From positions 1 through 57,125 of the forward strand of contig CAJXOR010000005.1 in assembly GCA_913057715.1 (NCBI GenBank): a DNA stretch of 57,125 nt, written 5' to 3'. The notes under the pieces are model-generated. The model was not told the DNA's origin. It did not search any database and saw only the letters and a program-made list of their open reading frames with translations. Each line of letters opens with the position of its first letter. Positions within the stretch are counted from its first letter, which is position 1. Origin of the DNA: an uncultured Moraxellaceae bacterium. GTDB lineage: Bacteria > Pseudomonadota > Gammaproteobacteria > Pseudomonadales > Moraxellaceae. Shown here piece after piece: positions 1 to 57,125 of the stretch. A program made the translations under genes and the position numbers.

Positions 1-49
1 ATCTACACTATCCTCTTCGTCGGCAGCGTCAGATGTGTATAAGAGACAG
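1..49. other. Illumina Nextera i5 adapter left on the contig end
   Basis: These bases are a synthetic library adapter, not genome. Positions 1-8 are the end of the P5 sequence (ATCTACAC). Positions 9-16 (TATCCTCT) are an 8-base i5 index, which I recall as S503. Positions 17-30 are TCGTCGGCAGCGTC and positions 31-49 are the 19-base transposon mosaic end, AGATGTGTATAAGAGACAG. Genomic sequence begins at 50. Read on the minus strand, the adapter adds a false tail (AVSYTHLTLPTKRIV) to the priA frame, a peptide familiar as a contaminant in protein databases. Confidence 0.99.
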
Positions 50-830
50 CGCTACCGGTCACACCATAGAGCAAAAAGGTTTGGTATCCGCAAGCTGAGT
101 TGATTGCTTCAAATGCAGCAGTTTGCGCCGGATTCATCGGTTCCGACCCTGCGACAACGGGTTTACCAATTTTAGCGGGGAGTGTAGCTTCAGAAATAAG
201 AGGATCAAGATCGCCGCGAGCGGGCGGAGATTGGGTGCATTTGACTATGGCCTTTGATTCAAGTGACCTAAGCGTGGCTAGGGAGATACCCAGATTCAAG
301 CGCTCTGCGTCACTGAAAAAACCCGGGGTCAGCATTGCTTGATAAGCATCATGCAGTCGGTGGTGGCGCTGATCCGGAGCCTTAGCCTCAGGGGTCAGTA
401 TCCAGTAATTCTGAGTATCTTGGGTGTCCGCTAGCCATAGATCGGTTTCACCAAGCCCAGGGAGCATGGCACTCAGCACCTCACCCAGAGGCTCTAAGTA
501 GTAGTCGCTCATCCATACAGCCAGTTTCATGAGTCTGTGATCGATCACAGGCTTGCTATCGATCAGCTCGAGCGCTTGCTTAAGCGGGTAATCAGTAACT
601 GGAAGCTGTGAGGGTAACTCAGTGATCACGCCAATCATGCGGCGTGATCCAAAAGGGACCTTGATTCGAGCACCGATTTGAAGCTGGTTGAGCTCTAAAC
701 TTCCTGGCAGATAACTAAAACTCTGATCGAGCGGCACTGGGAGCGCCACCTCGATTAGCGCGGGGGTGGCAGCGGGGGAGGTATTTTTGGAGTTCACGGG
801 CTTAGAAGATGCAGGGTTATGGTTAGTCAA
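50..830 (-). CDS. priA: Primosomal protein N' (PriA), partial: N-terminal ~260 residues
   Basis: PriA is the 3'-5' DNA helicase that recognises stalled forks and reloads the replisome. The N-terminal DNA-binding part is visible (ALPVPLDQSFSYLPG, then KVPFGSRRMIGVI), and the frame reaches the start of the Walker A motif (LLYGVTGS) before the sequence runs into adapter at 49. The rest of the gene (helicase core, zinc-binding region, C-terminal domain) is missing because the contig ends, not because the gene is broken. The longest frame starts with TTG at 830. A GTG twelve codons in is an alternative, since family members usually begin close to the VALPVPL stretch. It lies 63 bases downstream of ridA on the same strand and may be co-transcribed with it. 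Confidence 0.93.
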
Positions 831-893
831 AGCTGGCTGGCCTGAAGCAATTTGTTTGCGAACAAGTGTTTCAGTTTAAAGCTACTCAGCTTT

Positions 894-27692: not shown

Positions 27693-29786
27693 TTAGGCCT
27701 TATCGGTATCTGGCACCACGATATGATCTCCTGGGCTTTGCAGGTAAATACCTTGCAGGAAGTCAGCGCCGATGGTCCATGACTGCGACATAGTCGGTGC
27801 ATCCTCGATAAAAGCAATCATGCTTGTAACGTGGTGGCGACTGATGTCCTTGATGAACGTGGCCGTACCTTGCGCTTGCTCATCATTGGTTAGGTTTGAG
27901 GTGTAGGCACGATCCAGCTTGACCATGTTGGGGGTTATATAGTCAAACAACTCCATCGCTTTTGTGGATGCGCCAAAGGCATTGATGGACAAGTTACACC
28001 CTGCTTTTTTGAAGGCGTCAAATTGCGACCGCGCCTGCCCCAGGTATTTGACGACATCGGGTTCAGAGAACTGCAGGGTGATTGGCGCTGTTTCAGCACC
28101 AATGGCCTTAACCAGTTTGCTGGCAAACTCTGGTAGTCCAGTATCTTGGAGGGCGTTACCTGAGAGGTTGATTAGCAGCTTGCTGTTGGGATCTTGTTTG
28201 AGTGCACCGCGTAAGTTTTTAGCGGCGTTGAGCATGACCCATCGATCCAAGCGCTCGAGCATGTTTGCCTGTTCTGCGATGTGCAGAAACTTATCCGGCG
28301 TCATGGAGGTGCCGTCAGGCAGCGGCAATCTTAAGTAGACTTCATGAAAGTTACTCTGACCACTATTGATGTCATAGATCGGTTGATACAGCAGCTTAAA
28401 CAGATTTTGATCCAGTGCGTTATTGACGGTTTCAAACAGCGCTGATTCAGATTGACTGGCCTCCTCAAGCGGATCATACAAGGACACGCCATTGCCGGTG
28501 CCTTTGGTTTTTTGACGAACCCTATCAATCCCTTTGTAGGCACGATTAAAAATGTCCACGGAGCTGGGTGAAGTTTCGTTGATCAGGGCCAATCCAATTG
28601 ACAGGCTGGTCCTGGCAGTTTTGTTACCGATAGGGATCAGGTCTTTGTCGATTAATTCGAGTAGCTCGTTGGCGTGAGCCAAAAGCTCGTCTTTTTTGGT
28701 GTCAGGTATCAGCAATGCGAAAGTTGACTCACCAAAGCGACTGATCACTGCTTTTTTATGCTTCTCGCTCAGGCGACGCGCGACATGGATGATGACTGAA
28801 TCAGTTCCCTCGATACCAAAGGTGTTGTTGATCTGACCCATGTTATCGATGCTGACGAACATGAGGCCATTTTGGGTCTGCTTTTTGATCGCAGCACTCA
28901 CGCTTTGCTTGAGCTTTGCCTCAAAACCCTGTCGATTCATGAGACCGGTCAAAGCATCGGTCTGGTCACTAACTGCCAGCAGTCCGGCACTTGATTGATG
29001 ATCAAATTTTGGCTGGATAATCAGCTGGATGCAGGGTTGCCCATCATAGCTGGCAGGAGACATTTGAACTAAAGCTTCAAAGTCACTCTGGTTTTGAGTT
29101 AAGAAACTGAGCTTAAGATCTTTATCGGGTAAATCTCCCTTGGAGAAGCCTTTGAGTTGATCCTTGAAGGCTTGGGTGTCGTCGGGTGAGATCAGGTCAA
29201 TCACGGGTGTGCCCAGCAGTTCACGAGAGTCTTTGTAGCCAAACAAATCTAAGTAGCTTTGGTTGGCATACAGGTGAGCCCCTTCTACGATGAAGGCGAC
29301 CGAGCTTTTGAGCTGGCGAAGCAAAGCCTGATTTCTGGAGTCTGAATGCTCAAGCAAGTTCTGGGTTTGGCGAAGTTCGCGGCGGATGATTAGGGTCTCA
29401 AATTCACGCTTAATCAGCTCAGCAATTAGGCTGATGGCACAGCGATCTGGAGCGTGCCTGACCCCAGCTTTCATCAACTCAACTGCTTGATCGCCGCTGC
29501 AATCCGAGCTGCCTACAGCGGGTTTGTCGTCACTGACAAGGGCGATCACAGGAACATCTAGCCCGTTGTTTCTGAGTATGGAGAGCGTATCAAAGGGGGT
29601 GATATCAAAGGCGTTGCCGTGGACGATCACATCCAGAGGGCGTCTGAGCATCTTGAGCAGCTCTTCTTTTTCGTCTGCTAGGACAAGATGAGTACTAACC
29701 AACGGGATATTGATCAGCTCACTGAGCTTTTCTGCGTATAACTGCTCATCATCTAATATGAGCAGGTTGAGATCATTTTTGAGCAT
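27693..29786 (-). CDS. fimX: FimX-like c-di-GMP receptor (REC-PAS-GGDEF-EAL, all degenerate)
   Basis: The 697-residue product has the domain order of Pseudomonas FimX, which binds c-di-GMP and controls type IV pilus assembly and twitching. A receiver-like domain (about 1-130) lacks the phosphoacceptor aspartate (VIVHGNAFD). A PAS domain spans about 155-260. A GGDEF domain (about 275-440) has FGEST (351-355) in place of GGDEF. An EAL domain (about 455-690) has EVYLR (482-486) in place of EALxR, so neither cyclase nor phosphodiesterase activity is expected. The neighbours, a PilZ-like gene upstream and psd downstream, match the Pseudomonas fimX locus. No pilus genes are in this window. Confidence 0.85.
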   Translation of the reverse strand: MLKNDLNLLILDDEQLYAEKLSELINIPLVSTHLVLADEKEELLKMLRRPLDVIVHGNAFDITPFDTLSILRNNGLDVPVIALVSDDKPAVGSSDCSGDQAVELMKAGVRHAPDRCAISLIAELIKREFETLIIRRELRQTQNLLEHSDSRNQALLRQLKSSVAFIVEGAHLYANQSYLDLFGYKDSRELLGTPVIDLISPDDTQAFKDQLKGFSKGDLPDKDLKLSFLTQNQSDFEALVQMSPASYDGQPCIQLIIQPKFDHQSSAGLLAVSDQTDALTGLMNRQGFEAKLKQSVSAAIKKQTQNGLMFVSIDNMGQINNTFGIEGTDSVIIHVARRLSEKHKKAVISRFGESTFALLIPDTKKDELLAHANELLELIDKDLIPIGNKTARTSLSIGLALINETSPSSVDIFNRAYKGIDRVRQKTKGTGNGVSLYDPLEEASQSESALFETVNNALDQNLFKLLYQPIYDINSGQSNFHEVYLRLPLPDGTSMTPDKFLHIAEQANMLERLDRWVMLNAAKNLRGALKQDPNSKLLINLSGNALQDTGLPEFASKLVKAIGAETAPITLQFSEPDVVKYLGQARSQFDAFKKAGCNLSINAFGASTKAMELFDYITPNMVKLDRAYTSNLTNDEQAQGTATFIKDISRHHVTSMIAFIEDAPTMSQSWTIGADFLQGIYLQSPGDHIVVPDTDKA

Positions 29787-29807: not shown

Positions 29808-31490
29808 TTACTTACGGGTAATTGCCGAAGTAATGGTGAAGTCGTATTGGTTGAAGCTGGCCGTGGTCAGATATACCTGACCCAATTTAGCCACCACTTC
29901 CTGATTACTGACGCGAAGTTTGATCCGGTGCGCTGGGCTAAAGTGATAGCTGGGAGTCAAAACGGATGCTGCGCGATTAAGAGACTTAACCTCGGGGAGG
30001 ATTAGTGCGCGCATGTAAACCGGATTTTCATCGCCGGGTCTGGCCGGCTGAACGCCGGCTGCTGTTGCTTCAGATGATATCACCTCGATACCGAACTCGG
30101 CACCCTCGCCAGGGTTCTGTTGGACCCAGCGAATGACTCCAACCTGCCAAGGTTCATCGGGATTTTCTCTCAGTGAGATTACCTCCCCGGTTTTAAGCGC
30201 GTTGGTGATCTCATGGCCCCATTTGGCACGGTAGCCGCCAGGCGAGATATTGATGATGTTGACCTTGTGAATCCTTAAGTGTTCTTCGTCAATATCTTGT
30301 GATGCCTGTCCAAATTTGAGGGGTGAGTCATCGAAGTGCAAGTTTTTATCGACCAAAGCGCTTTTCTTGGTTTCTGCCAGCATCAGCTCTTTGAGTTTGA
30401 TGATTTTGCCGAAACTGCGTTTACCGCCAATATGATAGTGGGAAGCCACGAGTCCCAGCAAAACTTCCAAATGCCCGTTGTAAGGGTGCCTTGCAAATCC
30501 TCTCTCTAAGGGTTCGTGGATACTCTTTGCGACGTAGTCAACCAAATTAGAGGAGGTAATGTCCTTTTCTTTAGGGTAGCGAGCATGTCCGTTTGAGAGG
30601 TTGTTCAGGTGCGTGAGTAATTCACTGGCGTTGATGTAGATCAACTCATGGCTGGTTTTTTGGGTGCTGGTGACGTAAAGCGGTGGATGATCACTTTTTA
30701 GATCGACCAGCAACAAGTCGTGACTTCCCGGCTCACTGCTACTTTGAATCAACTCAACCCATGCTGCTGAAAAATCATAAAGCTTGGTGATCTCGGCTTG
30801 ACGTAAGCGGTTGGTTCCTGCCATTTCAAGTAACACGCAGCGCAAAAACTCTTGATTGACGGTGGTCTGCTCTTTAATGCTGGAAAGGCTGCCTTCAAAG
30901 GTTTGACCTAAAAGCTGAAGCGCTGCCGCGTCTCGGTAGATTTCGTGGATGCGCTGCCAAAGAAGGGCAAAAGGAGTCAGGTAGAGTAGCTTGCTTTCAT
31001 AAAGCAAACCGCCTAGCTCGTTTAGGGCTCGGTGAGCACACAGCGCGAGCGGGTTCTGCTTTCGCTTAAAAAGGCTGAGCTTGGATTTGGTGGGTTCAGG
31101 TTCGCTTTTAAGGCGCTCAAATATACCAAAGTAGATAACGATGCTTTGAGCGCGCAGTTGCTGAACCAGACCAGCGATACCAGCTCCCCTGGGATCAAGA
31201 ACAATACTTTGCTTAAGATAGTGACGATGCAGAGAGCTAATCAGATTTTGAACCGGCCTGCGGAGTTCTTCCATGTAGGCGAAGCGCTCTTGCTCGGTGA
31301 TATCCAGCATCGCCAGCTCATGAAGTGTTTGGCGAGTTTGCTTAGAGATATCCGCCATGTTTTTCAGGTTAAGCTCGTTAACCCAGGTTTTAACACCTGC
31401 AATGCTGGTTTCAAAGTGCGTAAAACGCGTCAGTTTAGGCTGAGGGTCAAGACCCTTAATAAGCATGTTGCTAATCTGCTGTGTGTTCAT
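29808..31490 (-). CDS. PilZ-like domain protein of the PA4958 type
   Basis: The 560-residue product has a long helical N-terminal region (1-390) without a motif I recognise. Its C-terminal region (about 400-475) is PilZ-like: VNIINISPGGYRAKW, with NISPGG at 414-419 resembling the DxSxxG c-di-GMP motif, then GVIRWVQ and EFGIEVIS strands. The expected RxxxR arginine pair is not obvious, so c-di-GMP binding is uncertain. It lies 21 bases upstream of the FimX-like gene. In Pseudomonas aeruginosa a comparable large protein (PA4958) sits between fimX and psd, so a shared role is likely but inferred. Confidence 0.7.
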   Translation of the reverse strand: MNTQQISNMLIKGLDPQPKLTRFTHFETSIAGVKTWVNELNLKNMADISKQTRQTLHELAMLDITEQERFAYMEELRRPVQNLISSLHRHYLKQSIVLDPRGAGIAGLVQQLRAQSIVIYFGIFERLKSEPEPTKSKLSLFKRKQNPLALCAHRALNELGGLLYESKLLYLTPFALLWQRIHEIYRDAAALQLLGQTFEGSLSSIKEQTTVNQEFLRCVLLEMAGTNRLRQAEITKLYDFSAAWVELIQSSSEPGSHDLLLVDLKSDHPPLYVTSTQKTSHELIYINASELLTHLNNLSNGHARYPKEKDITSSNLVDYVAKSIHEPLERGFARHPYNGHLEVLLGLVASHYHIGGKRSFGKIIKLKELMLAETKKSALVDKNLHFDDSPLKFGQASQDIDEEHLRIHKVNIINISPGGYRAKWGHEITNALKTGEVISLRENPDEPWQVGVIRWVQQNPGEGAEFGIEVISSEATAAGVQPARPGDENPVYMRALILPEVKSLNRAASVLTPSYHFSPAHRIKLRVSNQEVVAKLGQVYLTTASFNQYDFTITSAITRK

Positions 31491-56840: not shown

Positions 56841-57125
56841 GAGGGTTTCTCGGCTGGGTTTTTGAAGCTGTCGATGATCAGCAAGATCGCGCCGAGCACG
56901 ATCGCCGAATCGGCGATGTTAAAGGCAGGGTAGTTCCAGTTTTGGTAAAACAGGTGCACAAAATCGATCACGTAACCGTAGATCAGGCGGTCGTAAAGGT
57001 TACCGATCGCACCGCCTATGATTAGCGCAAGCGCCGTGGCCACCAGATGCTGCGATGGTTTGAGACGGGTTAACCAAACGCTGAGCACCACACTAAATCC
57101 GGCTGCCAAGGCGATAAAAAAGTAC
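56837..57125 (-). CDS. lspA: Lipoprotein signal peptidase LspA, partial (C-terminal)
   Basis: LspA cuts prolipoproteins at the diacylated cysteine in the inner membrane. The gene runs off the window, so only about 95 C-terminal residues are seen. They include GGAIGNLYDRLIYGYVIDFV, with one catalytic aspartate, and PAFNIADSAIVLGAILLI, with the other. An in-frame TTG at 57109 is not the real start, since the coding frame continues to the window end. The enzyme acts on lipoproteins such as those at 27240 and 55723. Confidence 0.96.
   Translation of the reverse strand, partial: YFFIALAAGFSVVLSVWLTRLKPSQHLVATALALIIGGAIGNLYDRLIYGYVIDFVHLFYQNWNYPAFNIADSAIVLGAILLIIDSFKNPAEKPS

Follow-up and report, generated by a model that had tools for sequence, protein, structure and literature searches.

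Nextera adapter sequence at the start of a Moraxellaceae contig and at most readable contig ends of its draft assembly

Adapter sequence and interrupted priA at the window start

The window, i.e., the whole stretch of DNA analysed here, comprises 57,125 bases and corresponds to the entire contig C5 of a draft assembly (G000:C5:1-57125). Its first 49 bases represent the 3' part of the Illumina Nextera i5 oligo and can be split exactly into four parts (Table 1), with the first genomic base at position 50. Bases 1-8 (ATCTACAC) are the end of the P5 flow-cell oligo. A listed i5 index, 503, lies between this tail and the read-1 arm, bases 9-16 being identical to the entry for 503 in Table 5 of PMC4712552, while bases 17-49, consisting of the arm and the mosaic end, are letter-for-letter equal to the Tn5ME-A oligo as printed in PMC4248319. 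Comparison with the Nextera/Nextera XT oligo S503 combined with Tn5ME-A revealed agreement in order and sequence at 49/49 bases, of which 41 agree with the sequences printed in PMC4248319 and PMC4712552 and the other 8 belong to the P5 tail. Unlike the full S503 oligo, the window copy is cut off at its 5' side and lacks the start of the P5 oligo. An earlier note had described these bases as a Nextera i5 oligo made up of a P5 tail, an 8-base index and two Nextera segments, and had placed the window start at a contig end; both statements agree with the printed oligo and index and with the extent of C5. A chance origin is excluded because only 1.6e-15 copies of the 33 constant bases are expected in the window under an independent-bases model, and because the 19-base mosaic end, searched with up to three mismatches, was found once in the window vs. 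in none of 100 shuffles. No papers were retrieved for the index combined with the arm, for the mosaic end together with adapter contamination or for the peptide SYTHLTLPT, and broader searching yielded, among the matches listed, general contamination papers and genome reports only.

Table 1. Coordinates of the adapter parts and of the priA frame at the window start
Feature	Position	Strand	Basis
P5 tail, last 8 bases, ATCTACAC	1..8	+	Sequence split
i5 index 503, TATCCTCT	9..16	+	PMC4712552, Table 5; 55/55 full i5 indices of the assembly identical
Nextera read-1 arm, 14 bases, TCGTCGGCAGCGTC	17..30	+	Tn5ME-A in PMC4248319
Synthetic mosaic end of hyperactive Tn5, 19 bases, AGATGTGTATAAGAGACAG	31..49	+	PMC4248319
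False priA C-terminus, AVSYTHLTLPTKRIV and stop	3..50	-	Hybrid A codon takes its genomic base from position 50
Genuine 5' part of priA	50..830	-	260 codons from TTG at 830 plus one base; NF004067

The gene interrupted at this junction is priA. The minus-strand frame 3-830, which is 275 codons long, gave a match to the profile of primosomal protein N' (NF004067, E=1.8e-34) and terminates in AVSYTHLTLPTKRIV. The C-terminus of this 275-residue product, already suspected to be false, indeed contains 15 false residues, namely one hybrid A codon, with a genomic G and a CT contributed by the adapter, and 14 residues encoded purely by the adapter. The break falls within the GxTGSGKT motif; the C5 piece stops at GxTGS, and in 14/14 relatives priA runs on beyond the junction with GKTEVY. 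A DNA-level search with window positions 50-893 gave no match in the other 57 of the 58 genomes searched; the relatives are too distant at this level, and therefore proteins were compared.

The rest of priA was found on contig C21 (TIGR00595, E=2.2e-135, profile positions 50-508), where genomic DNA starts directly after an i7 adapter and the priA piece begins with FKLAL. Pairwise alignments were used instead of a multiple alignment of both fragments with the 14 relatives, which misplaced the C21 fragment and returned a meaningless gap of 0; they showed that 35 residues are missing between the two pieces in 14/14 relatives, or 36 if the first F of C21 is placed on the conserved F. With one split-codon base on each side, the missing 35-36 residues correspond to 103-106 bases. 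Since the priA pieces continue one another with a 35-residue gap, C5 and C21 are neighbours, and the roughly 103-106 bases that separate them, where priA is broken, most likely went uncovered. Alternatively, a true deletion or rearrangement could have been capped by the adapter by chance, which would fit with the C5 and C21 pieces being unjoined in the assembly. This alternative is highly improbable, as each piece remains intact as far as the junction, both are collinear with 14/14 relatives, only 35 residues are missing, and adapter ends are present on both sides of the break.

Elsewhere in the window, a minus-strand open frame of 560 residues (29808-31490), for which Pfam gave no match at E 0.01, lies immediately next to a GGDEF/EAL protein (27693-29786).

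Distribution of adapter ends in the assembly

The draft assembly comprises 131 contigs totalling 2,228,234 bases, with a completeness of 95.41. A search allowing up to two mismatches revealed 179 copies of the mosaic end (88 forward and 91 reverse; 178 exact), and a control with the reversed pattern gave 0 matches in the same assembly. Ten contigs (C122-C131) were excluded as their ends read as N, which left 121 contigs with 242 readable ends. The mosaic end is present on 178 of these ends, in one case with a mismatch, and the one further copy is internal to contig C9, so that the extent of the adapter is larger than the earlier note had stated. Of the 242 ends, 219 were inspected as sequence (178 bearing the mosaic end and 41 lacking it), and the remaining 23 gave no match in the mosaic-end search. 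The arms at the 178 ends could be assigned to i7 (100 ends) or i5 (77 ends), with one end too short for assignment. All 83 fully readable i7 indices were CATGCCTA (706), and all 55 fully readable i5 indices were TATCCTCT (503). The occurrence of one index pair throughout indicates a single library that was assembled without adapter trimming.

Adapters do not explain all contig breaks, because 64 of the 242 readable ends lack a full mosaic end, including the other end of the window at position 57125. No mosaic-end remnant was found at 57125, which implies another cause for the break there. The left end of contig C117 (L342) carries a tandem 9-base repeat resembling GTTTTTGCT, and the break at this end is probably due to the repeat rather than to an adapter.

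A real mobile element, with the end of a Tn5/IS50-like transposon lying in priA, was considered. In its favour, the ends of IS50 are relatives of the 19-base mosaic end, which Tn5 transposase can use; against it, the mosaic end represents an in vitro replacement of the natural ends (PMC4248319). The window start contains only the synthetic mosaic end, with neither a natural outside or inside end nor an adjoining transposase gene, and the contig does not extend past the adapter. Furthermore, a mobile element would not account for the location of all but one of the 179 copies at contig ends, where two arms but a single index pair are seen, nor for the mosaic end being present in only five of the 397 other genomes of the phylum, in one or two copies. 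The index and arm sequence that precedes the mosaic end is not known from any transposon, which also argues against a mobile element, and the probability of this explanation is considered vanishingly small. A laboratory Tn5 transposon inserted in the strain before sequencing was regarded as less probable still: constructs of the EZ-Tn5 type do carry an identical mosaic end, but no cassette follows it here, the outer side consists of the Nextera arm and index wherever it is readable, and a strain would not carry some 178 insertions located exclusively at contig ends. Both natural and engineered Tn5 insertions were rejected.

The internal copy has its mosaic end at C9:30823-30841, at the 3' end of an argA frame that matches N-acetylglutamate synthase (NF003641, E=2.3e-126); no internal mosaic-end copies were found in C41-C121. 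The argA frame ends in RYNP, followed by adapter-coded CLLYTSDA and additional false residues, and in comparisons with 14/14 relatives homology breaks off at residue 352 of 371, where the adapter starts. The 11-base sequence GGGTTATAGCG is present on either side of the adapter, and therefore the assembly probably contains two readings of the argA site linked by an adapter remnant.

Adapter sequence also reaches into predicted reading frames in other parts of the assembly. At 114 of the 178 adapter-bearing ends, a reading frame with 80 or more open codons either enters the adapter or has a possible start inside it, and these frames are not necessarily all genes; the frame runs into the adapter at 77 ends and may start at an adapter codon at 53. 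The recurring adapter-coded peptides (VSYTHLTL, CLLYTSDA, SLIHISEP, MCIRD and VYKRQ) could pass for conserved motifs. The present assembly is the only genome representing the genus in the searched set, and therefore claims of gene absence or of novel C-termini for the genus depend on this adapter-affected assembly.

Proposed read-through route and likely record of Tn5 cut sites

Bases 1-49 are, with near certainty, a synthetic sequencing adapter that was left in the assembly, probably by read-through of untrimmed reads. According to the proposed route, Tn5 transposase would have cleaved the genomic DNA and attached mosaic-end oligos to the fragments, and PCR would have added the P5 and P7 tails carrying indices 503 and 706. 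Reads exceeding the insert length would then have run into the adapter at the far end, and the untrimmed reads would have been assembled as they were. Where coverage was lost, a contig would end at the cut site of the last fragment, followed by the adapter; for the window, this stop would fall inside priA, about 103-106 bases before the next covered fragment at the start of C21. Read-through as the route and coverage loss as the cause of the breaks are the processes proposed for the adapter-capped ends. The feature is an artefact of a common and well-known type, a data-cleaning error that reaches an unusual extent in this assembly; it holds no biology and is useful for curation only, and its significance is limited to data quality.

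Comparison of all 15,753 pairs among the 178 adapter-bearing ends revealed 16 that overlap in neighbour orientation by 8-53 bases. Three pairs (C6/C12, C14/C108 and C91/C104) overlap by exactly 9 bases, the length given for the Tn5 target duplication in PMC4248319. Controls yielded one overlap of 8 bases (reversed) and overlaps of 8, 8, 9 and 10 bases (same-strand interior), and since such overlaps also arise in controls, any single short overlap (8-10 bases) is weak evidence; overlaps of 14-53 bases were found in none of the controls. Adapter lengths at the contig ends cluster at 47-50 bases with a maximum of 55, which, together with the lack of overlaps longer than 53 bases, suggests that the assembler used a k-mer near 55. 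Tn5 prefers G at the start of the junction, and 84 of the 178 junctions start with G. The untrimmed ends fairly likely constitute a record of Tn5 cut sites, in which ends sharing exactly 9 bases would be sister fragments derived from one transposition event in one molecule. If this is true, the sister fragments imply a low-complexity library, and contigs could be ordered without the reads.

Adapter copies in other genomes and public records

The exact mosaic end was detected in six of 398 genomes from the phylum. As in adapter contamination of public assemblies generally, the adapter lies at contig ends and creates false protein termini; unlike the other contaminated assemblies, of which there are five among 397 genomes with one or two copies each, the present one is affected unusually heavily, at 178 ends. 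VecScreen screens for contamination of this type (PMC7794651), and adaptors are listed among common contaminants (PMC10898089). The i5 arm with the mosaic end was found in 26 of 50,697 phage records and 8 of 72,556 plasmid records, and in 0 of 20,395 E. coli records (5,426 complete genomes). The scans of genome_contigs and viral_contigs gave at least 120 matching stretches each; distances from contig ends were taken from locus ends, and internal copies are undercounted for loci that cover only a portion of their contig (L207, L214).

Several public viral records harbor adapter copies within or between annotated genes. In the RefSeq record of Peduovirus P22H1 (NC_049386.1), the Nextera i5 arm and mosaic end (1297-1329) lie within the annotated terminase gene, whose product YP_009877169.1 would contain CLLYTSDAADD, and a second adapter copy is located at the start of the record. 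In phage vB_EcoM_WFK (MK373775.1, about 149749-149781), a longer P5-side stretch of the adapter, adjoining a poly-T run, separates annotated pieces of a long tail fibre gene, and WFK_00242 has adapter-coded residues. Phage Pd_22F (MZ092003.1, about 27885-27917) shows a poly-G run and both kinds of adapter mid-genome, at a feature annotated as recombinase-like. In Acinetobacter phage TAC1 (MK170160.1, 22702-22734), the adapter is positioned between two annotated tail fiber genes, which are possibly one gene split by the adapter. The viral contig IMGVR_UViG_3300000510_000121 contains an internal adapter with index TATCCTCT at position 2168, after two N bases, and appears to represent two pieces scaffolded through the adapter.
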